Below, one piece after another: positions 3,563 to 27,776 of a stretch of DNA of 33,999 bases. Every line of letters starts with the position of its first letter. Position 1 is the first letter of the stretch. Made by a program: the position numbers and the translations under genes. The DNA lies in IMG/VR virus record IMGVR_UViG_3300035698_006246, positions 1-33,999 of that record, one strand, 5' to 3'. The notes below the pieces were generated by a model that was not told where the DNA came from, did not search any database, and saw nothing but the letters and a program-made list of their open reading frames with translations. This DNA is from a virus.

Positions 3563-4002
3563 ATGACAAACTTATAAAACTACTTAACCTCACTAGATCA
3601 GAGAATGACGGAGAAGCTTTATCGGCTATCCGCAAAGTCAATATGTTGATGGGCAAGGTTGATATGACTTGGGAGACCGTCATAAACCCAGCTACTTTAA
3701 GAAAAAATCAATATGAATCTCAGGCGGCGGAAACACTTCGTAAATATGCTGAGGCACAGGAAAGATTTGCTCGCAGGCAAGCTGAAGTAGATCGGGAAAG
3801 ATACCTTCGTGAATTAGCTTTTGAACGGGCTCAACAAATGCAAAACCAACAATGGGCCGCCCAACAACAAGACACTACGTATTCTTTCGCGGCTGAGGCA
3901 GCGTGCAACTATGTGCCTAAGGGTGTAACGGTGGATCCCCCTAAACCTACTTTTATCGAAAAGCTTATAAACAAGGTAAAGGGCGAGGCAACCTCTCCTT
4001 AA
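3559..4002 (+). CDS. DUF2786-like protein
   Basis: The first 45 residues of this 147-residue protein (KLIKLLNLTRSENDGEALSA and following, with MLMGKVDMTWE) resemble DUF2786, a short helical domain of unknown function that recurs in phages and bacteria. A long charged helix rich in Arg, Glu and Gln follows (about 50-100), then a proline-containing linker and a basic helix. The GTG start overlaps the upstream stop. The TAA stop is the start of a TAACAGATA motif. Confidence 0.7.
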   Translation: MNDKLIKLLNLTRSENDGEALSAIRKVNMLMGKVDMTWETVINPATLRKNQYESQAAETLRKYAEAQERFARRQAEVDRERYLRELAFERAQQMQNQQWAAQQQDTTYSFAAEAACNYVPKGVTVDPPKPTFIEKLINKVKGEATSP

Positions 4003-4019
4003 CAGATATAATTAAGATA
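4000..4019 (+). promoter_or_regulatory. TAACAGATA late-type motif, copy 1
   Basis: The core TAACAGATA spans 4000-4008 and shares its first bases with the stop codon of the upstream gene. Here it runs into a perfect TATAAT (4007-4012) whose expected start point is the A of ATG 4019, with no Shine-Dalgarno and no good -35. This is the clearest of the six copies as a promoter. Confidence 0.6.
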
Positions 4020-5608
4020 TGGCACAAACCTACACCCATTTAAAAGGCAATCGGCTTACGGATATAAACAACTTTGCGTCGATATTCTTAGATAATAACT
4101 CTACGTCCACGGCGTTATGGAGCGCAGCTACTTTCACAGGCGACTGGGAAGTTTCTATGAAGCCCGTAACTAAAGTTTACGTTTTAGCAGATCAGGTCGG
4201 GACCCTTTATATTGAGCAATCAACCAGTGAGACTGGCCCGGCAGATATTACTCAGGCGTTTCCTGTTGATGCTGATCAAGAAATATTTGTTGATGTCACC
4301 AATAAGCTAGCATACATGCGCGCGCGGTACGTTAATGGGTCAAGTATCCAAACATCTTTTATCTTACAAACACAGCTAACCTCAGGGACCTCAGGCGCTA
4401 TTTCTGTTGCTCCGGCAGACGGACCAAATGTCGATTCATTCGGTAGATCTCGTGTATCTAATCCGTATACTCTTTTCGATTCAAAACGTTCGAATAACGA
4501 ACAAACATATTTTTGGGACAACCAAGAAACATCAGGAAGTGGAACTTTAAGTTCCTATTCTCAAAATAGGGCATCGACCTTTCTGTCGGTAGCTGGACCC
4601 GTAGGGAAAAGGACCCTTCAAACCTTTCAACGATTTAATTACCAGCCGGGGAAATCACAACAGATCATTATGACGGGTATACTAGGGGCAGGTCAGCCAG
4701 GGGTCATAAGATCATTAGGTTATGGGGATGATCAGAATGGGTTGTTTTTTGTACTTGATGAAAGTATCTTAAAGGTCCGGAAAAGAACTTTTTCAAGTGG
4801 GTCAGCTGTAGATATTGATGTGGCACAATCAGCTTGGAATCTAGACCGGTTAGATGGAACGGGCCCTAGCGGGATCACTCTTGATACCAGTAAGACGTTA
4901 ATTTTCACAATTGATTTTGAGTGGCTTGGCGTTGGTCGTGTTCGTATGGGTGTAGTTATTAATGGGAGGTTTCATACCTGTCATGAGTTTAGGCACTCTA
5001 ATGTGCTAGATGTGGTTTATATGAGTAGCCCAAACTTACCGCTCCGTTATGAGATAGAAGGCACAGGCTCTCATGAGTCGGCAAGTATTGAATGTATATG
5101 TTCAACGGTTATTTCTGAAGGGGGGATCGATCCTTTAGGTGCGGTTTTTAGTGTGGGTTCTTGGGAATCAGGTGGTCCGATTGATGCCAACACTGCTGGG
5201 AATACATATGCACTTGTGGGGATTCGATTAAAATCAACAAACTTAAACACTGTTTTAAAAGAGCTCCGACAAACAGTTGTCTACACAACAACTGATGATG
5301 CATATTGGACGTTAAGATTGAACCCAACTGTTGCGGGGACATTTACGTATGGGTCGGTCAACACTTATTCAGGTGTAGAATTTGCTAGAGGAGATAATGT
5401 TTCAGCTAATTCAGATTCTCAAGTAACAGGGGGAACTATTATTGACTCTGGGTATTTGTTGGGGAACGCCGCCACCGCAACTGAGCTAAAGAATCAACGA
5501 CATTTAGGGGTTGCTCTTGATGGCACCATTGATGAGTTGGTTTTATGTGTTAGTCCGATAACCTCTGGTCTAGATGTATATGGCTCTCTGACGTGGAGGG
5601 AATTATGA
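4019..5608 (+). CDS. Virion surface or receptor-binding-type structural protein
   Basis: This 529-residue protein is rich in Ser, Thr, Gly and Asn with short beta-strand patterns throughout and no signal peptide or membrane segment, as in phage fibre or surface proteins. The central part (from VDSFGRSRVSNP to QQIIMTG, about residues 140-220) looks like a block common in virion proteins of unrelated phages; I recall it as a structural signature but cannot name the family. It lies away from the main structural block but shares the TAACAGATA motif with it, which supports late expression. A tail-fibre or receptor-binding role is inference. Confidence 0.6.
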   Translation: MAQTYTHLKGNRLTDINNFASIFLDNNSTSTALWSAATFTGDWEVSMKPVTKVYVLADQVGTLYIEQSTSETGPADITQAFPVDADQEIFVDVTNKLAYMRARYVNGSSIQTSFILQTQLTSGTSGAISVAPADGPNVDSFGRSRVSNPYTLFDSKRSNNEQTYFWDNQETSGSGTLSSYSQNRASTFLSVAGPVGKRTLQTFQRFNYQPGKSQQIIMTGILGAGQPGVIRSLGYGDDQNGLFFVLDESILKVRKRTFSSGSAVDIDVAQSAWNLDRLDGTGPSGITLDTSKTLIFTIDFEWLGVGRVRMGVVINGRFHTCHEFRHSNVLDVVYMSSPNLPLRYEIEGTGSHESASIECICSTVISEGGIDPLGAVFSVGSWESGGPIDANTAGNTYALVGIRLKSTNLNTVLKELRQTVVYTTTDDAYWTLRLNPTVAGTFTYGSVNTYSGVEFARGDNVSANSDSQVTGGTIIDSGYLLGNAATATELKNQRHLGVALDGTIDELVLCVSPITSGLDVYGSLTWREL

Positions 5609-5823: not shown

Positions 5824-5827
5824 TTTG

Positions 5828-5862: not shown

Positions 5863-6741
5863 ATGCACTACACAAAACTATTCAACGAAATTTTAGATTC
5901 AACCATATGGAGCCGGCCAGATTATGTCAGGGTTGTATGGATAACCATGTTGGCTATGAGAAGTCAAAGGCATCAGGTCAGAGCATCGATTCCAGGTCTT
6001 GCGGCTAGGGCTCGTGTTTCAATGGAGCAATGTGAAGAGGCAATAAACCTATTCATGGCGCCAGACAAATACAGCCGAACAAAAGATCATGAGGGCCGTC
6101 GTATCCAAGAATGTGACGGAGGGTGGTTAATTCTTAATGCTGAGAAGTATCAAGCGTTGATGAGTTTAGAAGAGCGAAAATCGTATCAATCGTTATGGCA
6201 GAAAAACAAGCGCCTAGAAAGCAAGATAGCAGCCCTTTCTAGAAGCGACGACAGTTCGTCATCTTTGATGACTACCGTCGACGTTGACGACACAGTAGAG
6301 TATAGTAAAGTAAAGAACAGTAGAGTAAAGAAAAGTATAGTAAGTACTACTAACAACGATCGAGCTAATTCTACGTATTGGGCGACAGGGTTCGCCCGCT
6401 TCTGGGAAAAGTACCCAAAAAAGCGTGGAAAAGGCGCGGCTGAAAAACTTTGGTCAAAACTTCGACCTTCTCAAACGTTCACTGAACAAATCATTCGTTC
6501 TGTCGAAACTCATACAAAAAGTCCTGATTGGTTACGTGAGGGTGGGCAATTCATTCCTAACCCCTCAACGTGGTTAAACCAAAAACGCTGGGAAGATACT
6601 CCGGACCAGTCGATTGATCAGGCATTTAGATCAGGAGTATTTAAACACCAAAAGTCCAAATCTGAAGTTGAGTTAGCTATGGAAATGGTAGATCAGGAGA
6701 ATAATGGAAACGCAAAAGAAAATAATAGCCCTCTTGGGTAA
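5863..6741 (+). CDS. Phage replication initiator (winged-helix N-terminus, replisome organizer type)
   Basis: The 292-residue protein begins with a pattern typical of phage replication proteins: IWSRPDYVRVVWITMLAM, a SIPGLAARARVS helix-turn-helix stretch, PDKYSRTKDHEGRRI and GGWLILN. A low-complexity linker follows (about 120-165), then a C-terminal FWEKYPKKRGKGAAEKLW block and FIPNPSTWLNQKRWED, known from phage initiators that load the helicase. The linker DNA holds repeats that may be the replication origin. The ATG lacks a Shine-Dalgarno and sits at the predicted transcription start. The 3' end overlaps the next gene by 38 bases. Confidence 0.85.
   Translation: MHYTKLFNEILDSTIWSRPDYVRVVWITMLAMRSQRHQVRASIPGLAARARVSMEQCEEAINLFMAPDKYSRTKDHEGRRIQECDGGWLILNAEKYQALMSLEERKSYQSLWQKNKRLESKIAALSRSDDSSSSLMTTVDVDDTVEYSKVKNSRVKKSIVSTTNNDRANSTYWATGFARFWEKYPKKRGKGAAEKLWSKLRPSQTFTEQIIRSVETHTKSPDWLREGGQFIPNPSTWLNQKRWEDTPDQSIDQAFRSGVFKHQKSKSEVELAMEMVDQENNGNAKENNSPLG
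6247..6330 (+). other. Candidate replication origin inside the initiator gene
   Basis: The stretch holds an inverted repeat GACGA-CAGT-TCGTC (6247-6260), the half-sites CGTCGACG and TTGACGACA (6276-6292) shared with the operator before the gene, and then a purine-rich A/T tract with a direct repeat ACAGTAGAGTA (6292-6302 and 6317-6327) and several AGTAAAG copies. Binding sites beside an easily melted tract within the initiator gene is the lambda-type layout. The encoded linker is low-complexity, as expected if DNA function constrains it. Confidence 0.55.
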
Positions 6742-7207
6742 GGTAGCAAAGATAACTAAAGGGGATACGGATGCCGAGACGTTTAAACTTATGGCACAGG
6801 TTCTACAAAAACATGGGTATGAGGCTGTAGAAAATGCTGCTGTCAAAGGTTTAGAGAAGTGGACCTTCTTCCCAACAGTTGCTGAGATCGTTGAGATACT
6901 TAAACCTAGTCATAAGGTTCAGGCCAACGATTCGTTTCAACGCGCCTTAGAGCACGTTAAACGCTTTGGGAGTCAAAAAGCGATGAATGGCCTTACTAGG
7001 GTAGAGCAAGTCGCTCTCAAGTCAATTGGTGGACTCTCTGGCATAGGTATGTGTACGTCGGATGAAGTTAAATGGAAGCGTAAAGAATATTTAGATCTCT
7101 ATGAGTCTTATGCCGACACACCTGGTTATGAGGATGATTCTAAACAGATCACCGATGGCCAAGCAAAGAAGTTCTTGAATAAACTTGATGTTCAAATCGG
7201 AACATGA
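6704..7207 (+). CDS. Probable helicase loader or loader-like replication protein
   Basis: The 167-residue protein follows the initiator with AGGAG before its ATG. Its first 65 residues (ALLGKVAKITKGDTDAETFK and later KWTFFPTVAEIVEIL) resemble the helical N-terminal domain of G39P-type loaders, where acidic-threonine and FPT-x-x-EI patterns recur. The C-terminal half is charged and helical, without Walker motifs, so it is not a DnaC-type ATPase. Context supports a partner for the host replicative helicase. The assignment is inference. Confidence 0.6.
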   Translation: METQKKIIALLGKVAKITKGDTDAETFKLMAQVLQKHGYEAVENAAVKGLEKWTFFPTVAEIVEILKPSHKVQANDSFQRALEHVKRFGSQKAMNGLTRVEQVALKSIGGLSGIGMCTSDEVKWKRKEYLDLYESYADTPGYEDDSKQITDGQAKKFLNKLDVQIGT

Positions 7208-7220
7208 TAGCATAGTGCTA
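7185..7220 (+). promoter_or_regulatory. Promoter and operator in front of the Cro-like gene
   Basis: TTGATG (7185-7190) is 17 bases from TAGCAT (7208-7213), which is the left half of the dyad TAGCATAGTGCTA (7208-7220). The expected start point is at or next to ATG 7222 and no Shine-Dalgarno exists. The 13-bp dyad is identical to the one at 2958-2970. Its position suggests autoregulation by the downstream protein. Confidence 0.6.
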
Positions 7221-7221
7221 T

Positions 7222-7434
7222 ATGACTGGTAAAGAATTAAGAGATATAAGAGAAGCCCTAGGTATCAAATCAATGAAGATGCTTGGGAGCATAACAGGCT
7301 ATAGTTATAGCCAGATTCAGAGAATGGAAACTGGTAAACAAAAAGTTTCAAAAAAGGTAGAAAATCATATCACTATGCTACATAATGATAATGTGGTAAT
7401 AATCACAAAAAAAAACCCTACCGGTGAAAGATAG
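7222..7434 (+). CDS. Cro/C1-type helix-turn-helix repressor
   Basis: The 70-residue product is almost entirely one helix-turn-helix domain of the XRE/Cro group. The pattern KSMKMLGSITGYSYSQIQRM and ETGKQKVS (about 16-45) matches the scaffold and recognition helices followed by the usual ERGK-like turn. There is no additional domain and no cleavage site, so it is Cro-like rather than a full CI-type repressor. It is the only recognised DNA-binding regulator and has the recurrent dyad at its own start, making it the best candidate to bind all seven copies. A hairpin overlaps its 3' end. Confidence 0.85.
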   Translation: MTGKELRDIREALGIKSMKMLGSITGYSYSQIQRMETGKQKVSKKVENHITMLHNDNVVIITKKNPTGER

Positions 7435-7440
7435 GGCTTT
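7411..7440. terminator. Hairpin terminator at the end of the repressor gene
   Basis: CCCTA (7416-7420) and TAGGG (7432-7436) form a stem with an 11-base loop. On the minus strand it is followed by a run of nine T, a good intrinsic terminator, while on the plus strand only a short CTTTAAAT follows. It probably separates the repressor gene from recT and may work in both directions. Confidence 0.55.
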
Positions 7441-7458
7441 AAATCAAAAAGGTTAAGC

Positions 7459-7487
7459 TTGGTGAAAGACTTATTTAAAACTACAAA
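7459..7487 (+). promoter_or_regulatory. Weak candidate promoter before recT
   Basis: TTGGTG (7459-7464) and TACAAA (7482-7487) are 17 bases apart in the 102-base gap before the recT start. There is no dyad operator here. The match is modest and is supported mainly by the terminator-like hairpin just upstream, which implies that a new transcript starts. Confidence 0.3.
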
Positions 7488-7536
7488 TTGAGTATGTCTG
7501 AATCTCGCTTTGCCGTCAAGCAAAGGAGAAATGTTT

Positions 7537-8415
7537 GTGAATCAAGTACAAAAAAGGAAAGACGACGTATCTCGTTTTTTCAACGAACAATCTGTTCAGG
7601 ATAAGTTAAACGCTTACTTCGAGAACAACGAAAACAAAATCGAAAAATTCAAATCAACCATGACTATGTTGTCCATGGAGCAGGACTTTCAGAAGTGGAA
7701 GCCGATGAGTATTATGGCGTGTGGTATTCAAGCTGCGCAGATAGGTCTCAGCCCACAGAAGAGTCTTGGTTTAGTATATTTCGTTGCCTATAAAGGGCAG
7801 TTGGAATTGACCGTTGGATACAAGGGTTGGCAGGCATTGCTTGAGCGATCTGGCAAAGCGGTAAAGTCCTTCCCTGTATACAAATGCGATGAGTTCTCAA
7901 TGGAAGTCAAAGGGTTTGAAGAGATTGTTTCTTTAAAACCTAACTACGACGAACACAACGAAGGGGATGTCACTTGGGTAGATGAAAATCTACGGGGTAT
8001 ATTGGTTGCGATCAAGGATACGAGCAATGGTATTGTTTACAACAAATTCGTTCACAAGGCGAAACTCGATCAACTCAAAGGCCAGAGCCCAAGCGTGAAG
8101 AAACAAAGGTTCTCTCCCTGGACTCATTTTGCACTTGAGATGTTCATGGCAAAAGCTATCAAATACGTGATAAGTAAAACGGCCATGGATGAGAAAGTCT
8201 CACTCGCTGTCAAGATTGAGGATGAGCTGGAAATAAAACAACAGGGGCATTTAAACAAAAGAGGGTCACTCGTCGCACAACAAATCGCGCAGGAAATTCC
8301 TCAAATTGAACAAGGAGAAGAAAATGGAAACACAGTTACCGACGGAAGCCAACTTACCACAGAAGACCAATACCCAGTTGAAGACGAATCACAAGCCGAG
8401 CCCGAACTGCCCTGA
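7537..8415 (+). CDS. recT: RecT-family single-strand annealing protein
   Basis: The protein has the RecT family pattern: NQVQKRKDDVSRFFNEQ at the start, WKPMSIMACGIQAAQIGLSP, the YFVAYKGQLELTVGYKGW core strand region, and TAMDEK near the end. RecT anneals complementary single strands, working with an exonuclease that resects ends. GTG 7537 is chosen because AAAGGAG (7522-7528) is at normal distance; ATG 7531 is too close to it. The C-terminal tail is acidic and Gln-rich. It overlaps the exonuclease gene by 92 bases. Confidence 0.9.
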   Translation: MNQVQKRKDDVSRFFNEQSVQDKLNAYFENNENKIEKFKSTMTMLSMEQDFQKWKPMSIMACGIQAAQIGLSPQKSLGLVYFVAYKGQLELTVGYKGWQALLERSGKAVKSFPVYKCDEFSMEVKGFEEIVSLKPNYDEHNEGDVTWVDENLRGILVAIKDTSNGIVYNKFVHKAKLDQLKGQSPSVKKQRFSPWTHFALEMFMAKAIKYVISKTAMDEKVSLAVKIEDELEIKQQGHLNKRGSLVAQQIAQEIPQIEQGEENGNTVTDGSQLTTEDQYPVEDESQAEPELP

Positions 8416-9334
8416 ATCTGAATATAGATCACATCCAGCTCTTGGATCCACAGATGTCAAAACAATTTTAAGTAATGCGAAGAAGTTTAATGCAATTCGT
8501 ACAGGCGAACACCAAGAGAACAAAGATGCCTTTAGAACAGGTAGAGCTTTTCATAGCCTCCTTTTAGAGCCTGAACGCTTTTTTGAGGATAATGTTGTCA
8601 CGAAAGTCAATTCAGATCGCCTCTCTGGGATCTTTGAAAGAAACAATTATGTCGTGGCACCATGTAAGGGGAAGACTGCTAAAGTGTACAAAGATTTGGT
8701 GGAGCAGCACCCGGACAAGGATGTTGTAATTGAGCCAGATGCTAGCCGGATGGAATTCATGAAGGAGCACGCAGGGAAGACTTTCATCAGCCCTGACGAG
8801 ATGGAAGTTGTCGAAAGCCTTGTGGTTAAGATTCAAAACTTACAAGGCATGTCTAGGTACCTGAAGGAGGGGACTAGGGAGCAATCGTTCTTCGGTGAGA
8901 TTGAGGGCGTTCCTGTGAAGTGTAGAATAGATCTATTTGTCAAATCCAAGGATTCGGACCAGGTTATCATTTTTGATCCAAAGAGTACTGCTAAGGAAAA
9001 TACACCTGAGGTGTTTGTAAAAAGCTCCGCCAACTTTTCTTACTACATTCAAGAGTGGCTTTATACTGAGATTCTTAAACAAAATGGGTTTGATGTGAAG
9101 GATTATATCTTTATTCAAGCAAGCTCTTTGCCTTACAGTGGAGCTAGTTACTACAAACACGACTATATCGCTATGGAACGAGCTGAGGAAGAAGTGAAAC
9201 GGGCCTTACAGAAGTATAAATTTTGTAAAGAAACCGGCAAATGGTCAGAAGATAAGTTTGATTTCAACGAAAACAAGTTTGAAATAGTGAACGAAATACA
9301 GTTACCCAACTACATTTTTTATCGAAATGAATAG
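8324..9334 (+). CDS. recE: RecE-like / exodeoxyribonuclease VIII-type nuclease
   Basis: The 336-residue protein has the marks of the PDDEXK exonuclease group paired with RecT. They include STDVKTILSNAKKF, TGRAFHSLLLEPERF, CRIDLF, the active-site Asp and Lys in IFDPKS, and a Gln/Tyr helix (YIQEWLYTEIL). Such enzymes resect double-stranded ends and leave strands for RecT. ATG 8324 is preceded by AAGGAG at six bases; the upstream in-frame TTG 8306 is ignored. The gene follows recT, the reverse of the Rac order. It is the length of the nuclease domain alone. Confidence 0.85.
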   Translation: METQLPTEANLPQKTNTQLKTNHKPSPNCPESEYRSHPALGSTDVKTILSNAKKFNAIRTGEHQENKDAFRTGRAFHSLLLEPERFFEDNVVTKVNSDRLSGIFERNNYVVAPCKGKTAKVYKDLVEQHPDKDVVIEPDASRMEFMKEHAGKTFISPDEMEVVESLVVKIQNLQGMSRYLKEGTREQSFFGEIEGVPVKCRIDLFVKSKDSDQVIIFDPKSTAKENTPEVFVKSSANFSYYIQEWLYTEILKQNGFDVKDYIFIQASSLPYSGASYYKHDYIAMERAEEEVKRALQKYKFCKETGKWSEDKFDFNENKFEIVNEIQLPNYIFYRNE

Positions 9335-9342
9335 ATATTTGT

Positions 9343-9372
9343 TTGACATTCAATGTAGCATCATGCTACAAT
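9343..9372 (+). promoter_or_regulatory. Promoter with dyad operator, duplicate of the one at 2147
   Basis: TTGACA (9343-9348, perfect) and TACAAT (9367-9372) are 18 bases apart with TAGCATCATGCTA (9356-9368) overlapping the -10. The region from -35 to about 15 bases past the ATG closely matches 2147-2200, showing a duplicated control cassette. The expected transcription start is ATG 9379. Confidence 0.85.
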
Positions 9373-9378
9373 ATAAGA

Positions 9379-9594
9379 ATGGATACACGAAAAGAAATAA
9401 AACAAAAAATTAAAGGCCTTGAGGAGCGTATCATATGTTTCCGAGAGAATATGAATAATCCCATGCTGAGCACATTCTACGTTCAGTGTTACAAACAGGA
9501 CATTGATCGCACAGTTGGTCAAATCCTTAAACTTGTATATGTCGACCCAGCAAAGCCAAAGGCTATATGTCTTACTAGAGGGGTGATCGTATGA
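9379..9594 (+). CDS. Hypothetical small helical protein from a leaderless start
   Basis: The 71-residue protein starts MDTRKEIKQKIKGLEERI and is probably a helical hairpin. ATG 9379 lies seven bases after the -10 box, so the mRNA should begin at the start codon; an upstream in-frame codon at 9343 would be inside the promoter. No family is recognised. The stop overlaps the ATG of the lipoprotein gene. Confidence 0.65.
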   Translation: MDTRKEIKQKIKGLEERIICFRENMNNPMLSTFYVQCYKQDIDRTVGQILKLVYVDPAKPKAICLTRGVIV

Positions 9595-10073
9595 AAAAGC
9601 TATTCCCAATCCTAGTATTAACCATGCTTTTAGGTGCTTGTGGCAGCGATTCTAGCAACTTTGATGTAGCTCCGGAAGACGAGCCTATCGGACTTGGTAA
9701 GATGTACACGCTACATGATCAAGCTATTGCCTACCTTACTGACTGTACATACTTGAAAGACAATTATCCTGAAGGTGTAGAGCACATTAAGCAGGTTGAG
9801 TTGACGATCAAATGGTACCGGGAAGATGGAAACGGAAGTTGCGCAAATGCCAATGTGGATGGAAGTATCTTCTATAACGCCGACCCCCAATGCCAATGGG
9901 AAAAGAACAAGTGGAAGGTTGGTATCCTTCATGAGTTGGCACATGTCGCCGGCTTAACACATGGCGATTATACCAAAACAACATCAGACGAATACATACA
10001 TTTTTTATGGGAGCTAGAGCAGTGCAATGCTTACCCATACGGTCTTGTAATTCAAACACCATGGTGGGAGTAA
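9591..10073 (+). CDS. Lipoprotein with metzincin-type zinc protease motif
   Basis: The 160-residue product begins with a lipoprotein signal ending LGAC (Cys17), so it should be lipidated and face the periplasm or outer membrane. HELAHVAGLTHGD (residues 114-126) matches HExxHxxGxxHxD: His114, His118 and His124 as zinc ligands and Glu115 as general base. Further cysteines suggest disulfides. A Met-turn after the motif is not evident. It lies in the operon of the strong operator-controlled promoter at 9343, far from the lysis genes, so early expression and an envelope function such as exclusion of rival phage are plausible inferences. Confidence 0.75.
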   Translation: MKKLFPILVLTMLLGACGSDSSNFDVAPEDEPIGLGKMYTLHDQAIAYLTDCTYLKDNYPEGVEHIKQVELTIKWYREDGNGSCANANVDGSIFYNADPQCQWEKNKWKVGILHELAHVAGLTHGDYTKTTSDEYIHFLWELEQCNAYPYGLVIQTPWWE

Positions 10074-10076
10074 AAT

Positions 10077-10292
10077 ATGACAAAAGTAAACATGAATAAA
10101 CAGTATTTAGGTGAAGATATCTTTGTTGAACATGACGGATATAATTTTATCCTGACAAGGGAAACAGAGGTTCATACCAGGGAAACTATTATTCTAGAGC
10201 CTTATATGGTGAACTTCCTCAAGGACTTTGTGGACAAGAGACACCAAGAAAAGGATCGAGAAGACTACAAAAAGCAAGGGGTGTTCAAATGA
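10077..10292 (+). CDS. Hypothetical small protein
   Basis: The 71-residue protein has an N-terminal beta-rich half (KQYLGEDIFVEHDGYNFILT) and a charged helical end. No family is recognised. It starts three bases after the lipoprotein stop, with GGGAG upstream, and its stop overlaps the next ATG, so it belongs to the same operon. Confidence 0.65.
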   Translation: MTKVNMNKQYLGEDIFVEHDGYNFILTRETEVHTRETIILEPYMVNFLKDFVDKRHQEKDREDYKKQGVFK

Positions 10293-10459
10293 GAGGTTTT
10301 ATAAAAATAGGTAAGGTTTATGAAGTTGATGCAGATACGTTTGAAGGTATGGCGCGCCAGCTCGCAGAAGCTAAGGAAATAATCAAAGACCTGGGCACAG
10401 AAGAATCACATGACTGGATGAGCACAAAATTTAGTGATCCTAAAGGTGAGAAGCATTGA
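10289..10459 (+). CDS. Hypothetical 56-residue protein
   Basis: ATG 10289 overlaps the upstream TGA. The frame reads MRGFIKIGKVYEVDADTF, then an alanine/glutamate-rich helix and the ending SDPKGEKH before TGA 10457-10459, where the next gene starts by overlap. Tight coupling on both sides and a natural amino-acid composition support it as a real gene despite its size. Function unknown. Confidence 0.6.
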   Translation: MRGFIKIGKVYEVDADTFEGMARQLAEAKEIIKDLGTEESHDWMSTKFSDPKGEKH

Positions 10460-10749
10460 CCGGTGTATGGGTATTTACTGTAGGAATCTTATTTTTTGTT
10501 TATGGATGTTTAGGTAAATTTCTTAAAAAAAATTACAAAAGAAAAATAACAGCCATTCCTTGTCCACATAAAGCTGCTTACGATATTTATGTAAAAACCT
10601 TAATTGATATAGCGGGTGGGCAAACCATGTGGCACAAAGAATATTGGACATGGGAGACTGTTAGATACTTAGGTGTGCCATGGCAAGAGTATGATGGCTG
10701 GATGAAAGGGGAAGTTAATATATCCCAGTACCTAGATAAGGAGTTTTAA
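10456..10749 (+). CDS. Small membrane protein
   Basis: The 97-residue protein has an N-terminal membrane segment (about residues 3-20), a basic cluster KKNYKRK and a soluble, Trp-rich end (TMWHKEYWTWETV). This gives an inner-membrane anchor with a cytoplasmic domain by the positive-inside rule. TTG 10456 is the likely start; it overlaps the preceding stop, and GGTGAG lies upstream. No family is recognised. Confidence 0.6.
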   Translation: MTGVWVFTVGILFFVYGCLGKFLKKNYKRKITAIPCPHKAAYDIYVKTLIDIAGGQTMWHKEYWTWETVRYLGVPWQEYDGWMKGEVNISQYLDKEF

Positions 10750-10751
10750 TC

Positions 10752-11228
10752 ATGAACACCGACGAAGCACAGAAATTAATTGAGGATGACATTCTTAAAA
10801 ATAAAATCATGTCTCTTGCGGATAAGTGGTCAACGCAACTTCTCGACGCAGAAGGTTATGTAAATTCAGATTATATGAATGCTTCGGATATAATGGAAAA
10901 AGCCCTCTTAGAATCCATGGCCTTAAAGAGTGAGATCTTTACACAAGGAGGAAGGACCAAGATGAACTGGATAAGTGTTAAAGATGGGTTGCCAGAAACC
11001 GGGGAAAAAGTAGTCGTGTGGGTTAAGCCTGGTTGCAGAGGGTATTGGAGTAGCGCCGTTTACAGAGAAGATAAAGAATATAAGTGGGTTGAAAGTGATT
11101 ATGATCGCACTCGCGATAGTATATATGATTTTTTTATACACGATTACAATATTACTCACTGGTGTGAAATAACCCCACCGAAAGAAGATGACCCCCAAGA
11201 ACAACACGATACTAGGAATGGTGATTGA
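10752..11228 (+). CDS. DUF551-domain protein
   Basis: The C-terminal part of this 158-residue protein, from MNWISVKDGLPETGEKVVVW to ITHWCEITPP (about residues 71-142), is a DUF551 domain, a small beta-rich domain frequent in enterobacterial-type phages and of unknown function. The first 70 residues form a helical extension. An internal ATG at 10962 with AGGAGG upstream could make the DUF551 part alone. TAAGGAG precedes the main ATG. Confidence 0.8.
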   Translation: MNTDEAQKLIEDDILKNKIMSLADKWSTQLLDAEGYVNSDYMNASDIMEKALLESMALKSEIFTQGGRTKMNWISVKDGLPETGEKVVVWVKPGCRGYWSSAVYREDKEYKWVESDYDRTRDSIYDFFIHDYNITHWCEITPPKEDDPQEQHDTRNGD

Positions 11229-11261
11229 TATGACCAATAAAGAGAGAGTAGAGTTAGTGAA

Positions 11262-11390
11262 ATGAACGTTAGCCCCAAAGGAGAAATTGATATTGGTACA
11301 ATTATAGTTACCTTATTATGCTTTGCCCCATTCGGTATATGGAAGGTTGTTGACATAATTATTTGGGTAATAAATCATGTGGAATGGTGA
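11262..11390 (+). CDS. 42-residue membrane peptide
   Basis: ATG 11262 overlaps the stop of an 11-codon frame (11230-11265). The product starts MNVSPKGEIDIGTIIVTLL and is mostly one or two hydrophobic segments, ending INHVEW. A protein this hydrophobic in a dense early operon is likely translated, but no homologue is recognised. Confidence 0.45.
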   Translation: MNVSPKGEIDIGTIIVTLLCFAPFGIWKVVDIIIWVINHVEW

Positions 11391-11442
11391 TTGATGCAAT
11401 TAAATTAGATGGTGGAGCATGAGCCATCAAGGAGGGGACTAT

Positions 11443-11843: not shown

Positions 11844-11844
11844 G

Positions 11845-11873: not shown

Positions 11874-11880
11874 TATATGC

Positions 11881-19336: not shown

Positions 19337-20497
19337 ATGAGATATATCTCGATCGGTAAAGCTTGGATCCTTGCCATAACAGGACTAGCCTTGTGTATTG
19401 TAGGGGTTGCTTTTGCTAATGGGAATACTTGGCAGCCTATCTCAAAGATGGCCGGCCAGAATAACTCAATAGCAGCATCTAGTGGCGGAGCTTCACCGGC
19501 TACCTTGGTGATTACCAGTACCGAGATTGCTGGCACCACTGCGAGCCCTATTCCGACGACATATACTTTTAGCGCAGACGTCACAGGCTTTGTCATTGGG
19601 GATATCACCGAAGGCAATTCCACTATAGGAAACTTTGCAGGCTCAGGGGCTGTGTATACAGCAGATCTTACCCCAACAGGTGGATCATGTAGCGAGGTTA
19701 CATCTAATGTAGCTTTGGACGTAGTAGATGCCCCAGGTAACTTGGCAGCAACTCAGTTTTCAATCATAACTGGATCAGCAGACGTTGAGACAAACTACTG
19801 GCTCAAGGTAGCTGATGGCTGGACGGACTTCGTGATATTTAATGATTGTTCTATTCGCTCATACAGTGAAATTCTTAACGAGGCGTATGCCAATGGGAAT
19901 GCAGAGTATCAACAAGCAGGTCCAGCATTAACCAACCTCAACGGTGTACGGATTGAAAAGACAGCCAGTGTTTCAAAAGCGAATGGGTTATTTACAGCTA
20001 CCCAGGATCATACCATCGACCCAGGGACAAGTGACTTTGTCTTCTTTGTCCAGCTCTCTCACCGTACAGGCTCATCCAATCCACAATATGTATGGGATCA
20101 GGAACGTAAATGGCCTACTCATTCAGAGGGTGTGGCTATGGAACTTACCTCAACCACAATCGAGATGTGTATAAACGATGGCAGCAATGATCATTGTAGT
20201 GTGTATTCTCATGGTGGCGACATCTGGGAAGATGATACCTTTTGGTCTGTCCGCTTTGAGTGTGATCGGTCTAACACTGCATGCGATTACTATGTCAAGG
20301 AGGCAGGTGGAACGGCCTCTACAGGAACCGCTACATCAGTCGGGACAGCTCTTTCTAGCATGGGGGATGTAAGCCCTGGCGGTAATCAACTTAGATTTGG
20401 CAACCGTCGATCAGGTTCGTTCAATACAAATATTACTTTATGGCAGTGGGGCGTTGAAGTGGGCGGCCTAACAGCAGACGTCACAACCTACCCTTAA
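19337..20497 (+). CDS. Exported two-domain protein with Ig-like and lectin-like regions
   Basis: The 386-residue protein has an N-terminal signal sequence ending AFA (residue 27). Residues about 50-125 (PTTYTFSADVTGFVIGDITE to APGN) resemble bacterial Ig-like repeats of surface adhesins. The rest (about 180-385) has a concanavalin-like beta-sandwich flavour, with conserved Trp, Gly and paired cysteines (FECDRSNTACDYY). It starts three bases after the previous exported gene. Surface binding is likely; whether it is in the virion or on the host cell is unclear. Confidence 0.6.
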   Translation: MRYISIGKAWILAITGLALCIVGVAFANGNTWQPISKMAGQNNSIAASSGGASPATLVITSTEIAGTTASPIPTTYTFSADVTGFVIGDITEGNSTIGNFAGSGAVYTADLTPTGGSCSEVTSNVALDVVDAPGNLAATQFSIITGSADVETNYWLKVADGWTDFVIFNDCSIRSYSEILNEAYANGNAEYQQAGPALTNLNGVRIEKTASVSKANGLFTATQDHTIDPGTSDFVFFVQLSHRTGSSNPQYVWDQERKWPTHSEGVAMELTSTTIEMCINDGSNDHCSVYSHGGDIWEDDTFWSVRFECDRSNTACDYYVKEAGGTASTGTATSVGTALSSMGDVSPGGNQLRFGNRRSGSFNTNITLWQWGVEVGGLTADVTTYP

Positions 20498-20536
20498 CAG
20501 ATAAGTATGAGGACCACCCATTTAGGGCGTCCCATA
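20495..20536 (+). promoter_or_regulatory. TAACAGATA motif, copy 4, with downstream hairpin
   Basis: The core spans 20495-20503, sharing TAA with the upstream stop. A long hairpin spans 20506-20536: TATG and GGAC pair with GTCC and CATA, and inside them CCC-ATTTA-GGG. TTTAAC follows, so it could act as a terminator or an mRNA stabiliser before the scaffold gene. Confidence 0.55.
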
Positions 20537-20561: not shown

Positions 20562-21656
20562 ATGTCAGAAGAAGTAGTAGGCACCGCTGCGCCCGCAGCA
20601 GAAGCCCCAGTAACCCCCACAACACCACAGGCACCCAATGTCCCAGATCTTAATGAATACGTCGAGACCACGTTCGATAATCTCAACGCAGTTAATCGCC
20701 AGAAATACGGTATCGATGCTGATCCGAATTCCGATGGTGGTGGCGAGCCATCAGACGAAGTCCGCGATACTGTTAAGTCGCTTACGGACATTACAGAAGA
20801 TCAATCAGCAGCACCCGAAGGTGAGCAAGAGGCTGAGGCGGAGACGGATCCGGCAGAAGGTGGCGAAGAAGCTGATCTTATTAAGGTCAATGGGCGTGAA
20901 ATTGACATATCAAAGCTATCGAAGTCCGAAAGGGTTTCATTAATCCAGAAGGGGTTTGGAGCTGACGAGAAGTTTAAACAGGCTGCCGATGCTCGTAGTC
21001 AAATGGAAACGATCCTCAAGCAATTACAGACCAACCCAATGGAAATTCTAAAGCATCCGTCGCTTGGCATAGGTGAGGAAAAGCTTCGTGAGATGATGGA
21101 GAATGAGCTAGGTGAGAAGTATAAGTATGAGTCCATGTCAGATGAAGAGAAGGAATATCACGACAACCTTCAGAAGCTGAAAGGCTATGAACAAGAGAAG
21201 GCACAACGTGAAGATAACGAGATCAGTGCTCAGAAAGAGGCCATGAAGGTCGATGCTCGAGAGCGATTCTCTGCCGACATCATGGAAGCAATCACTGAAT
21301 CTGGAATAACACCGAGCCCATTTGTAGTGAAGCAAACAGCTAAATATATGCTTGAAGCCCGTCAAAGAAAGTTTAACCTAAGTGCGAAAGATGTCATCGG
21401 TTTGGTAACTGAAGATATTCAGAATTACATGAGGCAGTACGTTGGATCTCTGGCCCCTGAGAAGATCACTGAAGTTCTGGGCGCAGATGCTGCTAAGGCA
21501 TTACGTCAGGCAGAGCTAGGCAAGGTCAAGACCAGAGGCAAGTTGCCTACCACCCCAGAAAAGCAGGGCAAAGGTAGATCAAATCCTCGTAAAAAAACTA
21601 TGTCAGTTGATGAGTGGCGTGATCGAAATGAAAAGATCAAGCTTGGATTGGCTTAA
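20562..21656 (+). CDS. Scaffolding protein
   Basis: The 364-residue protein is acidic and low-complexity at the N-terminus (Ala, Pro, Glu), helical and charged in the middle, with a basic C-terminal stretch (GKGRSNPRKKT) ending DEWRDRNEKIK. This composition, directly before the capsid gene, fits a scaffold that binds coat protein by its C-terminus. AAGGAG precedes the ATG. Identification is by composition and position. Confidence 0.82.
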   Translation: MSEEVVGTAAPAAEAPVTPTTPQAPNVPDLNEYVETTFDNLNAVNRQKYGIDADPNSDGGGEPSDEVRDTVKSLTDITEDQSAAPEGEQEAEAETDPAEGGEEADLIKVNGREIDISKLSKSERVSLIQKGFGADEKFKQAADARSQMETILKQLQTNPMEILKHPSLGIGEEKLREMMENELGEKYKYESMSDEEKEYHDNLQKLKGYEQEKAQREDNEISAQKEAMKVDARERFSADIMEAITESGITPSPFVVKQTAKYMLEARQRKFNLSAKDVIGLVTEDIQNYMRQYVGSLAPEKITEVLGADAAKALRQAELGKVKTRGKLPTTPEKQGKGRSNPRKKTMSVDEWRDRNEKIKLGLA

Positions 21657-21671
21657 CAGATAGATAAGAGG
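21654..21671 (+). promoter_or_regulatory. TAACAGATA motif, copy 5, before capsid
   Basis: The core spans 21654-21662, shares TAA with the scaffold stop, and continues GATAAGAGG, the fullest form of the consensus. It lies 173 bases before the capsid ATG, the longest distance of the six copies, followed by a hairpin with GATTCA (21676-21681) and TGAATC (21703-21708) arms. Confidence 0.55.
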
Positions 21672-21826
21672 CACAGATTCACAAGGGACGTTTAGGCTAT
21701 CCTGAATCGAAGCTTCAAGGAATTTACTTTGATCATAGTGGAGCGGACGCATTAGCTATCCAACCTACGAGCGGATTGAAAGTAAAGTTACAATAATAAC
21801 TTTTAACCTTTTTATAGGAGTAGAAA
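21672..21826 (+). other. Capsid 5' leader with an open frame lacking a usual start
   Basis: No gene with a standard start lies between scaffold and capsid. One frame stays open from 21668 to a TAA near 21795 and reads like protein (HKGRLGYPESKLQGIYFDHS and on), but has no ATG, GTG or TTG until almost its end. AAGAGG lies just before an ATT at 21677. It may be a decayed gene, a non-AUG start, or chance. Confidence 0.35.
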
Positions 21827-23104
21827 ATGGCACAATATATCAGCCCCACCGAGCTAGATGGTCTTTTCTATGAGGCGTACAGCGATTCTGTCGAGAATTT
21901 AATTCCCGATGGTGCAAAGCTTACAAAAATGATCCGCTTCGTAGAAGAATCAAAGCAAGAGGGAAACAAATACAATCAACCAGTCGTTCTTTCACATGAG
22001 CACGGCGTAACCTACGCAGCAGCGGACGAAGGTGCTTTTGCACTTAACGACCATGTTGCAATGACCATGAAAAATGCCGAGGTTCAAGGCTCTCAAGTAC
22101 TCTTGAGAACTGCGATCTCTTATGAAGTAGCTGCGAAAGCCTCTAGTTCAAAGAAAGCATTTGTCAAACATACCGAGCTAATCGTTGAGAATATGCTTGA
22201 TTCAATCACTAAACGTGTTGAGTTGATGCATCTTTATGGCGGATCTGCGACAGGTATTGGTCAAGGCACATCATCTGCTAACGTAGATGGTACACATACA
22301 GTGGTTACGTTTACAGCGGCTACGTTTGCAGCAGGTATCTGGGCAGGCTTAGAAGGTTGTAAAATGGATGCATACCATACTTCGTTTGGTACCAAGCTTA
22401 GCGCAACTTTGCCGTTTACGGTAGACAGCGTTGACTTTGACAACCTAGCGGTAACGTTCTCAAATACGGACACAACTGACCTTAGTAACTTGGACTCTCA
22501 ATTGAGCTCAGGCACTGCGGAATTTGTATTCTTTGGAGCTTACGGCAAAGAAGCAAACGGTATCGATAAGATCATCACCAATACTGGATCGTTGTTCGGA
22601 ATTTCTGCTGCCACTTATGGTTTGTGGAAAGGTAACAGCTACGGTGTAGGTGGAGCAGCCTTATCCTTGTTCAAAGTCCTTCGTGGTCTTTCAGACGCAG
22701 TTAACCGTGGATTAAACCGCGATACGACTATCCTTCTGAATCCAACTACATGGGAAGAGTTGAATGATGACTTGGCAGCCCTTAGAACCTTTGATCAGTC
22801 TTACAAAACACGTAAACTGGAAATTGGTACTTCGGCGATCACTTATCACGGACAAAACGGAATGATTGAGCTTATACCTCACATCTTCTGTAAACCAGGG
22901 GAAGCGTTCGCGGTTCCGTTGAAGAAAATCCGTAGATTAGGTGCTCAAGACATTAGCTTCAAGACCCCAGGTCGTGGTGATGAGATCTTCACCCACTTGA
23001 GCGATAGAGCTGGTTATGAGCTTAGAGCGTATACCAACCAAGCCGTCTTCATTGAGAAGCCAGCATGGTGTGTCAAGTACACAGGAATTACGAATACTGC
23101 GTAA
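21827..23104 (+). CDS. Major capsid protein
   Basis: The 425-residue protein follows the scaffold and has the alternating helix and strand pattern of HK97-fold coats. It starts with an AYSDSVENLIPDG N-arm, followed by a helix with VELMHLYGG, a probable beta-rich insertion (about 150-215), and a C-terminal part with LLNPTTWEELNDDLAALR. AUAGGAG gives strong translation. The following terminator is typical of an abundant capsid message. The call rests on position, size and pattern. Confidence 0.88.
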   Translation: MAQYISPTELDGLFYEAYSDSVENLIPDGAKLTKMIRFVEESKQEGNKYNQPVVLSHEHGVTYAAADEGAFALNDHVAMTMKNAEVQGSQVLLRTAISYEVAAKASSSKKAFVKHTELIVENMLDSITKRVELMHLYGGSATGIGQGTSSANVDGTHTVVTFTAATFAAGIWAGLEGCKMDAYHTSFGTKLSATLPFTVDSVDFDNLAVTFSNTDTTDLSNLDSQLSSGTAEFVFFGAYGKEANGIDKIITNTGSLFGISAATYGLWKGNSYGVGGAALSLFKVLRGLSDAVNRGLNRDTTILLNPTTWEELNDDLAALRTFDQSYKTRKLEIGTSAITYHGQNGMIELIPHIFCKPGEAFAVPLKKIRRLGAQDISFKTPGRGDEIFTHLSDRAGYELRAYTNQAVFIEKPAWCVKYTGITNTA

Positions 23105-23150: not shown

Positions 23151-23161
23151 AAGGAGTTTTA

Positions 23162-23698: not shown

Positions 23699-23715
23699 AA
23701 TGGAAGGAGTAAACA

Positions 23716-23946: not shown

Positions 23947-24873
23947 TTGGCTATAGATTACACAGTTACGGAGGTCATTGCGGATGCTAAGCGAATCGCT
24001 TCAGCTCCGACCTCACAGAAGCTCTTTCAAGATCCTGATATCATCAAGTTCATGACAAACGAGATTCGGTCTACACTTGTGCCCCAAATCATGGCACAGC
24101 GTGAAGAGCATTTTGTTGTCAGCTCAGATGATACTATCGTATCTGGGACTAGTGAATACCTTATCAATCGAAGAGCTATTGGGGCGAAGCTTCGAGATAT
24201 CGTGATCGTAGATTCTTCAGGTTCCGAACGTGATCTACCTCAGATCGGATACAAGGACCGTACATCTTCAGGCTTTTCATCAGCTACATTCCTTGATGGT
24301 TTTTTCATCAAAGGCAACAAGATCGTTCTCTATCCGGACGATACTCATGTAGGGGAAACCTTGCGTCAGTACTACTTTAGGAGGCACCCTTATCTTGTGC
24401 CCACAACTGAGTGCGCAAAGGTCGAGTCCATCAATACAGGTACCAAGCAAGTGACATTTACTTCCGTGCCGAGCGACTTCGCTACCTCTTTGACATACGA
24501 TTTTATTAAGGCCAAGCCAGACTTTGAACCTCTTGGCGACGACTTAACCATCACAACAATTGCAACTAATGTGATTACTTTCACAAATGATTTACCTAGT
24601 ACTCTAGAGGTAGGGGATTATCTGGCAGAGGCGGGGGAAAGCCCCATACCTCAGATACCATACGACTTCTATCCACTGTTGGCTGAGATGGTTGCGACCA
24701 AATTCAGGCAGGCAATGGGGAATACTCAACAGTTGCAGGCTGCTCAAGGAAAACAAAAGATCCTTGAGGAAAACGCTCAAGTGATGATCCAGCCACGGGT
24801 TGACTCTGCAACAAAGAAGCTAGTTTCTAGAAACGGCATCTTTAGATCAGGGAACCGAACATGGCGCAAATAG
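23947..24873 (+). CDS. Tail tubular protein A-like head-tail adaptor
   Basis: The 308-residue protein is mostly helical at both ends with a beta-rich middle, and includes YYFRRHPYLVP and PQIPYDFYPLLAEMVATKFR. In T7-like phages the two genes after capsid make the adaptor (gp11) and nozzle (gp12); this protein is in the first place. TTG 23947 immediately follows the preceding TAA. It overlaps the next gene by 13 bases. Identification is by order and resemblance. Confidence 0.7.
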   Translation: MAIDYTVTEVIADAKRIASAPTSQKLFQDPDIIKFMTNEIRSTLVPQIMAQREEHFVVSSDDTIVSGTSEYLINRRAIGAKLRDIVIVDSSGSERDLPQIGYKDRTSSGFSSATFLDGFFIKGNKIVLYPDDTHVGETLRQYYFRRHPYLVPTTECAKVESINTGTKQVTFTSVPSDFATSLTYDFIKAKPDFEPLGDDLTITTIATNVITFTNDLPSTLEVGDYLAEAGESPIPQIPYDFYPLLAEMVATKFRQAMGNTQQLQAAQGKQKILEENAQVMIQPRVDSATKKLVSRNGIFRSGNRTWRK

Positions 24874-27341
24874 CAGACTTCAAGATCAAGGGCAGACATA
24901 CTCATCCCAATCCACTTAGCTCGGTGCCTCAAGGGGCATTGATTACAGCGACCAACGTGGTTATTGATAATGATGATGTGGCAGAGACTCGTCGAGGGTC
25001 CAAGAAGTTCTACGAGACAGCTCTAGGGTCAGTTATTGATAAACTCTTTGGGTATAGGAATATGATACATGCTCATTGGGGCACAACACTATCCTACTTC
25101 TCAAGTGATGGGACAACCAAAACAGATTATACAGGTTCTTATGATGAGCCATTGGGTTCTAGAATGAAGACCATGGCAGCAAAACAGAACCTTTATTTTA
25201 CCACAGACGCAGGGATCAAGAAGATCGACACATTGGGGGGAACTATTGTTTCCTCAGGTGGAATCCAAGCACTCGATGGGGAAGCCGCTCTCACAGTTGG
25301 TGTTGGCTTTATGAGTGATGGTGTCCAGGTGGCATATCGTGTAGTTTGGGGATATAAAGATGCAAACGAAAATCTGGTACTTGGAGCTCCTTCGCAGCGA
25401 ATCACTATTGCTAACTCAGCAGGTGCAACTCGAGATGTGGATCTTACAATCACAATCCCGGCGGGGGTTACGACAGACTATTTCTACCAAATCTACAGAT
25501 CCGGAGAATCGGCCAGTGCATCGGCAGAGGCAAACGATGAGCTTCAACTCGTGGCAGAGGCGAATCCTACGGCAGGGGAAATCACAGCTAAAGAGGTCGC
25601 GGTCACTGACTCCACCCCTAACTCGCTACGAGGTGCAACGCTTTACACGTCACCTAGCCAAGAAGGAATCTCAGAAAGCAATTACCCTCCACCGCTCTGC
25701 AAAGACATGGCGGTCTTCAAAGAGCATGCTATCTATGTCAACACAGAGACCAAGCATCGCCTATTCTTAAACCTTATTGGGGTTGGATCTGGGGCCTTTA
25801 ATACAGGGGATACTATTACCCTTGATGGCGTGGTGTTTACCGGAGCTGTCGCAGAAGATGATACGATTCAAGAATTTGAAGTTGTTACCGCTGGGACTCC
25901 AGCCGATAACATTGAGGACACGGCGCAAAGTCTAGTCCGAGTGATTAATAAGCAAACTTCTGGGGGGATCTACTCATATTATGTTTCTGGGTTTGAAGAG
26001 CTACCAGGGCAGATACTAGTTGAGTCTAGGGATGTAGGGGATACTCAGTGGGCTGCAATCAGTTCAGCAGGCGCAGCATGGCTACCAGCCTTGCCATCTA
26101 GTGGCACAACTGTGCAAAGCTCAAGCGCGCAAAAGAAGAATCGAGCTTATATATCTAAAGCTGGCCAACCAGAGTCAGTGCCTTTGCTTTCATTTGTAGA
26201 TGTGGGTAGTGCAGATGATGAGATTGTAAGGGTATTGGCCCTGCAAGATGCTGTGTATTATCTCAAAGAAGACGGAGTGTACCGTATGACCGGCACATCC
26301 CGTAGCAACTTCGATGTGTCAGAGTTTGATAGGACAGCAGTCATTAAGGGGGAAGAGACCGCCGTCGTACTTAACAACCAAATTTGGTGTTACTCGACAC
26401 AAGGTGTTATATCAATAAGTACTAGTGGAGTGCAAGTAGTTTCTCGACCAATCGAAGATGACCTATTATCGATCTCTAGTGACCTATTTTCGGACTTTGA
26501 GACCATTGCCTTCGGTGTAGCTTATGAAACTGAGCGACAATATCAATTATGGGTCCCAACCGCGACGACTGATACCTATGCAACTCAAGCACATATTTAC
26601 AATACATTCACTGCTGCCTGGACCTTATGGACAGGGGATCGAAAGCATGCCGTGGTGCTTCGTGAAGACGATAAGCTATACCAAGCGCAGGCTGATACTT
26701 TCTTTTTACGACAAGAACGCAAGAACCGTACAGTTGAAGACTATGCTGAAGACGAGTTTGCCGTGGTTCTTTCTTCTTCTAGCACTACAGAGATTACCCT
26801 AGTTGATACCTCAGATATTGTGGCAGGTCAGTCCATAGCCCAAGAGATTACGACCGGAGTATTCCGACAGGCAAAGGTTGTTAGTGTTGATTCAGCTACC
26901 GTGATTACCGTAGATCGGAATAAGGGGTGGATCGCTGGCGCAGCAAAAGTTTACAATGCTATCTCACAAGAAGTAACTTGGACCCCTATCCATGGCGGAA
27001 ACCCTGGTATGATAAAGCAACAGCCTATGGTTGCCTTGTTCTTCAGGAATGCAGAATTCAGGACTGTAGATGTTAAGTTCTCATCTGACTTTGCCGATGA
27101 ATCTACCGTAACCAGCATTGAGTCTGTCCGAACTGGGGCCTTTGGTGTGGGCACGTTTGGAATTGGAACCTTTGGTGGTGGCCTCGCAGATCCACAGCCT
27201 ATCGCAACCTATGTCCCAGCAGAGCAACAAATAGGGCACTGGTTGAATATGACTATCGAACACAATGAAGCCTTAACCAGGATGGCTTTGGCTGGCTATT
27301 CACTCGGAGAAGTGCAGCCACAATCTGCACACTTTAGATAG
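24861..27341 (+). CDS. Tail tubular protein B-like nozzle protein
   Basis: The 826-residue protein starts with a pattern typical of T7 gp12-type nozzles: LSSVPQGALITATNVVIDND followed by ETRRGSKKFYETALG. Repeated short beta segments suggest a propeller. The stretch YLKEDGVYRMTGTS and later NNQIWCYSTQGVISIS are typical of this family. It would cap the tail tube and carry fibres. Length is similar to known nozzle proteins. The stop overlaps the next GTG. Confidence 0.8.
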   Translation: MAQIADFKIKGRHTHPNPLSSVPQGALITATNVVIDNDDVAETRRGSKKFYETALGSVIDKLFGYRNMIHAHWGTTLSYFSSDGTTKTDYTGSYDEPLGSRMKTMAAKQNLYFTTDAGIKKIDTLGGTIVSSGGIQALDGEAALTVGVGFMSDGVQVAYRVVWGYKDANENLVLGAPSQRITIANSAGATRDVDLTITIPAGVTTDYFYQIYRSGESASASAEANDELQLVAEANPTAGEITAKEVAVTDSTPNSLRGATLYTSPSQEGISESNYPPPLCKDMAVFKEHAIYVNTETKHRLFLNLIGVGSGAFNTGDTITLDGVVFTGAVAEDDTIQEFEVVTAGTPADNIEDTAQSLVRVINKQTSGGIYSYYVSGFEELPGQILVESRDVGDTQWAAISSAGAAWLPALPSSGTTVQSSSAQKKNRAYISKAGQPESVPLLSFVDVGSADDEIVRVLALQDAVYYLKEDGVYRMTGTSRSNFDVSEFDRTAVIKGEETAVVLNNQIWCYSTQGVISISTSGVQVVSRPIEDDLLSISSDLFSDFETIAFGVAYETERQYQLWVPTATTDTYATQAHIYNTFTAAWTLWTGDRKHAVVLREDDKLYQAQADTFFLRQERKNRTVEDYAEDEFAVVLSSSSTTEITLVDTSDIVAGQSIAQEITTGVFRQAKVVSVDSATVITVDRNKGWIAGAAKVYNAISQEVTWTPIHGGNPGMIKQQPMVALFFRNAEFRTVDVKFSSDFADESTVTSIESVRTGAFGVGTFGIGTFGGGLADPQPIATYVPAEQQIGHWLNMTIEHNEALTRMALAGYSLGEVQPQSAHFR

Positions 27342-27760
27342 TGGCAAGACTCCCCACCATTAGAAGGCTACTTAGGGAGAATATCCCCGAGGCACCGGAC
27401 TGGATTGATAAGCTTCTTAACCCATTGAACAAGTTCTTTGAAGAGACCTTTGCGGCCTTAGATAAGAACATCACATTTGAAGAGAACATTCGGGCGCAGC
27501 TCAAAAGCATCACATTTACCACAGGCGCTGCATACGATGGAACGGCGGCCAACTTTGAAATGCTCGTATTTTCGTCCACCTTACCGACAAAGGTCCAGGG
27601 CGTAATTATTATGCAGATCAAGGCTGACACAGACAACTACACCCCTATTGAGGGCGATGTATGTTTGGACTGGCAAGAGATTAATAAAGAGGTTCAGGTC
27701 GGTTTGATCAGAGGACTTTCAACATCAACCAAATACATTTTAAATGTTCTGGTGATCTAA
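27341..27760 (+). CDS. Hypothetical tail-associated protein
   Basis: The 139-residue protein starts at GTG 27341, overlapping the nozzle stop. An N-terminal helical half (RRLLRENIPEAPDWIDKLL and onward) precedes a beta-rich C-terminal half with a fibronectin-like ending (TSTKYILNVLVI). It could join a fibre or ejection protein to the nozzle. No family is recognised. Confidence 0.6.
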   Translation: MARLPTIRRLLRENIPEAPDWIDKLLNPLNKFFEETFAALDKNITFEENIRAQLKSITFTTGAAYDGTAANFEMLVFSSTLPTKVQGVIIMQIKADTDNYTPIEGDVCLDWQEINKEVQVGLIRGLSTSTKYILNVLVI

Positions 27761-27776
27761 CAGATAGAAGAGAGGA
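27758..27776 (+). promoter_or_regulatory. TAACAGATA motif, copy 6
   Basis: The core spans 27758-27766, sharing TAA with the upstream stop and running into GAAGAGAGG. ATG 27785 follows. Here GAGAGG may also serve as ribosome-binding site. The motif opens the block of helical virion proteins. Confidence 0.5.

Follow-up and report, generated by a model that had tools for sequence, protein, structure and literature searches.

The genome examined here raises the question of why a single 9-letter word, TAACAGATA, should recur six times at gene ends in a small phage genome, and what would read it. The window, by which we mean the whole analysed stretch of 33,999 nucleotides (positions 1-33,999 of record IMGVR_UViG_3300035698_006246, with genes taken from mechanical open reading frame calls), carries an exactly identical 127-bp repeat at its two ends (1-127 and 33873-33999), leaving 33,872 unique bases once the repeat is removed. 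Since the ends repeat, the genome is regarded as complete, and the absence of a gene from it is thus informative. A 153-aa open reading frame spans the circular junction (33738-33872 joined to 1-327, 5' of the lysis genes), and the C-terminal half of its product shows weak similarity to response-regulator receiver domains (E 0.12).

The six exact copies listed in the preliminary description were all recovered, at 4000, 12601, 16906, 20495, 21654 and 27758, on the plus strand, with none on the minus strand. The overlap with stop codons that it reported for five of the six was likewise reproduced: the TAA of TAACAGATA is itself the stop codon at 4000, 20495, 21654 and 27758, the stop at 16906 is a TAG starting inside the word, and the sixth copy (12601) begins 3 nt past a tRNA-Gln gene. 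With transcription starts predicted from the spacing known for phage phiEco32, copy 1 occupies 4000-4016 (9-mer 4000-4008, predicted start about 4014-4016) before a plus-strand virion structural gene (4019-5608, phrog_1645), which is set apart from the other structural genes by a replication and recombination block (5863-12533; replication initiator, RecT, exonuclease VIII and RusA) with no copy of TAACAGATA inside it. Copy 2 (12601-12617; 9-mer 12601-12609, predicted start about 12615-12617) stands at the head of the late module, directly 3' of the tRNA-Gln (ttg) gene (12524-12597, plus strand; ARAGORN, Rfam RF00005). Copy 3 (16906-16922, predicted start about 16920-16922) marks the boundary between the plus-strand genes for the terminase large subunit (15461-16915, phrog_2) and the portal protein (16926-18932, phrog_156), and copy 4 (20495-20511, predicted start about 20509-20511) precedes a plus-strand scaffold-like gene (20562-21656), so named from synteny and from homologues located directly before the capsid gene in contigs G004, G005, G032 and G057. 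Copy 5 (21654-21670, predicted start about 21668-21670) lies in the gap between this gene and the plus-strand gene for the major capsid, or major head, protein (21827-23104, phrog_14242; 29-55% identity to relatives), and copy 6 (27758-27774, predicted start about 27772-27774) follows a 139-aa gene and precedes the gene at 27785-28942; an internal-virion-type protein (PHROG match) is encoded at 24861-27341. The earlier statement that mainly structural genes follow the word thus held for the virion structural, portal and major head protein genes, assigned by PHROG, and for the scaffold-like gene, while the genes after 12601 and 27758 carry no assignment.

In the capsid-gene leader (21657-21826), an element resembling GGACG-TTAGCTATCC occurs twice and there is an open reading frame without the usual start codon (KGRLGYPESKLQ...); similar pairs also precede the capsid genes of G004 and L166. 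This leader is possibly a conserved leader RNA or a packaging site.

To judge the repetition by word count, the chance expectation on the plus strand was calculated with a trinucleotide-based, second-order model, which gave 0.22 copies rather than the earlier figure of 0.1. In simulations, 1 of 60 genomes contained some 9-mer at least as extreme as TAACAGATA, and another word, ACGCCGCTG, present four times in the window, had an enrichment score slightly above it. Since all 9-mers were in effect scanned, the count of TAACAGATA is by itself suggestive, and its genome-wide enrichment is moderate. With one mismatch allowed, 11 sites were found in comparison to 8.9 expected, which is not above chance, so that the signal resides in the exact word and its position. 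The decisive evidence comes from the positions of the copies and from comparative data: all six copies fall at places not wholly inside a coding sequence, a property shared by 7.5% of the positions in the window (P about 1.8e-7).

The sequence after the word is also constrained. The loose continuation noticed earlier is real, but its spelling is better given as NNTAWGAGR, and the bases at +6 to +8 after the six copies are G-A-G with 1.3, 1.7 and 2.0 bits. The hexamer TATAAT, which had been taken to overlap the end of the motif, exists at 4007, at that copy alone, and the idea does not generalise. No conserved -35-like block was found upstream of the copies in the window, as the preliminary description had stated, or in the relatives N111 and G005, and a loose sigma-70 scan of the window gave no strong -35/-10 pair positioned to start RNA at the copies.

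Relatives were gathered with a terminase profile and capsid profiles, which yielded about 130 loci. One motif, of the general form TTAAY-A-NN-T, recurs in thirteen related contigs, each with a variant of its own; the variable letters are CAGA in the window and CAAG, CAAC or TAAG in other contigs. The 116 aligned copies from the 14 motif-bearing contigs (window included), 7 of them on the opposite strand, share TTAAYANNT and, at offsets 14/15 counted from where the motif begins, a weak TA. The relatives' motifs lie almost exclusively on the late-gene strand and at shared boundaries, namely before the portal gene, before the scaffold gene, between the scaffold and capsid genes, and after the capsid gene. 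The scaffold-capsid gap holds a copy in 13 of the 14 contigs, and most of them have copies before portal and scaffold as well. The terminase/portal boundary of copy 3 is occupied in N111, G032, G033, G034, G041, G061 and G066, with the G005 counterpart 100 nt 5' of the portal gene; the pre-scaffold boundary of copy 4 is occupied in N111, G005, G032, G033, G034, G066, L298, L316 and L320; and the copy at 55785 of N111, after a homologue of the 139-aa gene, is the orthologous counterpart of copy 6.

Individual relatives show the same strand preference. N111 (NVTQ01000001.1) is a complete phage of about 80 kb whose ends are redundant over about 2.4 kb. It contains nine copies of TTAACAAGTA, every one on the plus strand and eight in the late module, and the remaining roughly 2 Mb of its metagenome-assembled genome hold two more. 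G005, which seems to represent the structural half of some larger phage, has 16 copies of TTAACAACT on the coding strand and none on the other. TTAATAAGTA is carried by G032, whose capsid protein is 52% identical to that of the window, and by G033 and L298. Each phage uses one main spelling, and the spellings cluster on the capsid tree, in which the window and G032 group with G004 and G057, both small-genome members (support 88/88); the label "none" given to L302 on this tree is too strict, as four copies of TAATAAGTA occur in that contig. A further set of 21 relatives showed no strongly enriched TAA-N4-TA word. The literal TAACAGATA is absent from relatives or away from gene boundaries, because each lineage spells the motif in its own way. 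The preliminary description had regarded copies inside unrelated coding regions of relatives as speaking against a promoter; the relatives' own variants are wholly inside an open reading frame of at least 100 aa in 6 of the 116 cases, which does not amount to such a pattern, and it was only the literal spelling of the window, which is not the relatives' motif, that showed it. A scan of viral contigs for TAACAGATANNTANGAG returned 120 scattered stretches, with one match per listed locus.

The closest named genome is Proteobacteria phage MWH-Nonnen-W8red 1 (CP017838, Silvanigrella host), whose terminase, portal and major capsid proteins are about 26-28% identical to those of the window, and a motif equivalent to that of the window was sought in it and not found. 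The enrichment of TGCAGATA in this phage was rejected as a motif, being largely due to internal duplication, as for several repeated words there. In contig L300, a unit containing TTAATCCGTATAA is repeated four times in tandem after a capsid-region gene (11199-11290), and these repeats are possibly clustered promoter-like elements or iterons.

Late promoters with a -10-only element are familiar from phage T4, where TATAAATA is read by a small phage sigma (gp55/gp33/gp45); TAACAGATA would be alike as a -10-only element but differs in sequence. A closer likeness is offered by phiEco32, whose middle and late promoters consist of a single element, tAATGTAtA, with transcription starting 6-8 bp downstream (PMC8948821), and where these promoters are read by the host core RNA polymerase with the ECF-type phage sigma gp36, a protein without region 4 that therefore needs no -35 (PMC8948821; PMC4331800). 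As a control, the tAATGTAtA element was recovered in the phiEco32 record. Both elements are single, 9 letters long, of the TAA...ATA type, without a -35 and upstream of late or structural genes, and they share 6 of 9 letters, with the inner letters being CAG in the window and TGT in phiEco32, so that the exact tAATGTAtA is not the element of the window. The conserved GAG at +6 to +8 falls where the phiEco32 starts lie (6-8 bp downstream), the starts in the window being predicted from sequence. The two phages differ in genome size (34 kb for the window in comparison to 77 kb), and among the phiEco32 late proteins tested, only the portal protein matched, weakly, to N111 (E 1e-4). Phage 7-11, which is related to phiEco32, keeps the promoter positions with a different sequence, and its late promoters, GTAAtg-16-aCTA, are read by the sigma gp47 on the host core (PMC8948821); they comprise two elements because gp47 has region 4. 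The clade of the window likewise keeps promoter positions between relatives while the sequence changes, whereas its element is a single one. Taken by their architecture, the elements of the window appear to resemble phiEco32 late promoters closely.

N111 encodes a 159-aa ECF-type sigma (PF08281, 6.6e-10) that matches phrog_1740 at 4.4e-18, in comparison to 1.9e-45 for gp36 of phiEco32, and matches to the same family were found in the motif-bearing relatives G066 (3.1e-8), G061 (2.8e-6) and G034 (6.6e-10), as well as in G052/L321 (8.6e-11), a contig outside the scored motif copy sets. In the window, no sigma factor or homologue of gp36 was found by Pfam, PHROG (phrog_1740), phmmer, hhalign or a custom profile, and none was recognised in G032, G045 and G048; the methods applied differed between these four genomes. 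Even the sigmas of the relatives lie close to the limit of detection, so the window may encode a strongly diverged one. A size-matched candidate at 6704-7207 gave an uninformative AlphaFold model, with a mean pLDDT of 47.

A 142-aa gene on the minus strand inside the late module (13579-14007), with homologues in at least 10 relatives, encodes a protein with the pattern DY..KL..EE..WL.KF..EY...H...NN.RN. It was rejected as the reader for its presence in contigs that yielded no motif and for its weak model (pLDDT 58). The promoter-like site at this gene is overlapped by an operator-like palindrome, AGCAYNRTGCT, which occurs six times exactly in the window (2161, 2423, 2959, 7209, 9357 and 14023). 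Two copies overlap the two strongest sigma-70-like promoters of the window (2147 and 9343), and two others overlap weaker minus-strand ones (14047 and 7233). By their arrangement these sites probably constitute a repressor regulon, for which the small HTH gene at 7222-7434 is a candidate repressor.

The likeness to phiEco32 and the sigma-like proteins of motif-bearing relatives together make a single-element late promoter with a sigma-type reader the best explanation, and several other readings were weighed against it. The elements might be RNA-level sites, that is, intercistronic processing or stability elements of one long late transcript, as their location at gene ends, one directly 3' of a tRNA, and the hairpins after several of them could suggest. 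However, the plus-strand copy at 15946 of N111 stands alone between minus-strand genes, and with no gene upstream on its own strand there is no transcript to process; one G005 copy directly follows the terminator-like hairpin after the capsid gene, and the spelling varies between lineages, all of which makes this reading very unlikely. Several leader hairpins start about 10-14 nt past the motif start, as expected if RNA starts there, with z scores of -2.1 for 12601 (12 nt past the motif start) and -3.1 for 20495 in the window, -3.4 for N111 38805 and -3.4 for G005r 39210, and other leaders have no hairpin. Frameshifting or recoding at the stop codons was rejected after the scaffold-capsid gap was checked, the frames past the motif running into stops. 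The N111 (L240) segment that starts with the copy at 15946 (15946-16190, plus strand) ends in a terminator-like hairpin and is a candidate small RNA; it has no Rfam family match and folds no better than shuffles, so a non-coding RNA label would go beyond these data.

More weight is given to the reading in which the same late promoters are served by a host alternative sigma, or by the sigma-70 holoenzyme with a small non-sigma phage activator, although it too is unlikely. The failure to find a sigma in the complete genome of the window favours it, as does the overlap of the N111 copy at 15946 with a sigma-70-like promoter (TTGACA-17-TATGTT), but each phage has its own spelling, which follows the phage lineage and points to a phage-encoded reader, and several motif-bearing relatives encode sigma-like proteins. 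Moreover, some copies are followed within 5-11 nt by an ATG codon, too close for a separate core promoter to fit in between; the element must therefore itself be the core promoter and not an upstream activator site. Promoters for a T7-type single-subunit phage RNA polymerase, with a compact element and then initial purines superficially like ...TATAGGGAGA, are highly improbable, since the window has no unassigned early open reading frame of polymerase size and the long early-strand frames tested in N111 are a DNA polymerase, a helicase-primase and an RNA ligase; PF00940 found no match in the window, G001, G004, G005 or the Silvanigrella phage, in a weak search that was silent on control genomes as well. 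Least probable of all is that the word recurs by chance or as a side effect of codon usage and TAA stops. The modest enrichment and the four copies that use the motif TAA as a stop would fit it, but two copies do not use that TAA as a stop, and an effect of stop codons would not be expected to conserve position without spelling across 13 other contigs.

The assignment of TAACAGATA as a phage late promoter thus appears well supported on sequence grounds, and quite probably it is the central part of a -10-like late promoter of the single-element type, which is specific to the phage, serves at six places and is read by the host polymerase core with a phage-controlled sigma-type factor. Weighing against this reading are the failure to recognise a sigma or a single-subunit RNA polymerase in the complete genome, the modest word enrichment, the many relatives that show no such motif, and the leaders predicted for the copies at 4000 and 16906, which would be as short as about 3-6 nt. 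The preliminary proposal of a late promoter with no -35 and a phage-specific factor is supported by equivalents at orthologous late-gene boundaries in relatives and by an architecture that matches the mapped phiEco32 promoters; its suggestion of an activator or a modified polymerase is best recast as a sigma-type factor. The start and timing of transcription, as well as the sigma-type nature of the reader, none being recognised in the window itself, are what we infer from this likeness. The holoenzyme, consisting of the host core and the phage-controlled specificity factor, would need no -35 box to bind the element, which is roughly 9 bp long and lies at about -14 to -6, and RNA would begin 6-8 nt downstream, in the conserved purines (GAG). 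The copy at 12601 would open the late operon, those at 16906, 20495, 21654 and 27758 would boost the portal, scaffold, capsid and downstream virion genes, and that at 4000 would place the isolated structural gene (4019-5608) in the late class.

Late-promoter recognition by this type of phage sigma has been worked out experimentally for phiEco32 and 7-11 (PMC8948821; PMC4331800). What is new here is that phiEco32-like single-element late promoters apparently extend to a clade in which the spelling differs from lineage to lineage, and to a small, complete genome where no sigma was recognised. In this metagenomic phage clade (contigs of roughly 15-89 kb) the promoter positions are kept while two to four inner letters change, so that its members form matched sets from which the pairing of sigma residues with the bases they read could be learned, and the motif family would allow the late operons of unannotated phages to be delimited from sequence alone. 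The window itself poses a puzzle: its 34-kb genome is complete and has six elements, yet nothing recognisable to read them. Tentatively, and with rather less confidence than in the promoter itself, we suggest that in the members of roughly 31-34 kb (the window and G032) the late promoter may be read by a phage specificity factor of a class not yet recognised, outside the known sigma and RNA polymerase families, with factor and element drifting together; if so, the clade would constitute a natural series of matched factor/promoter pairs.
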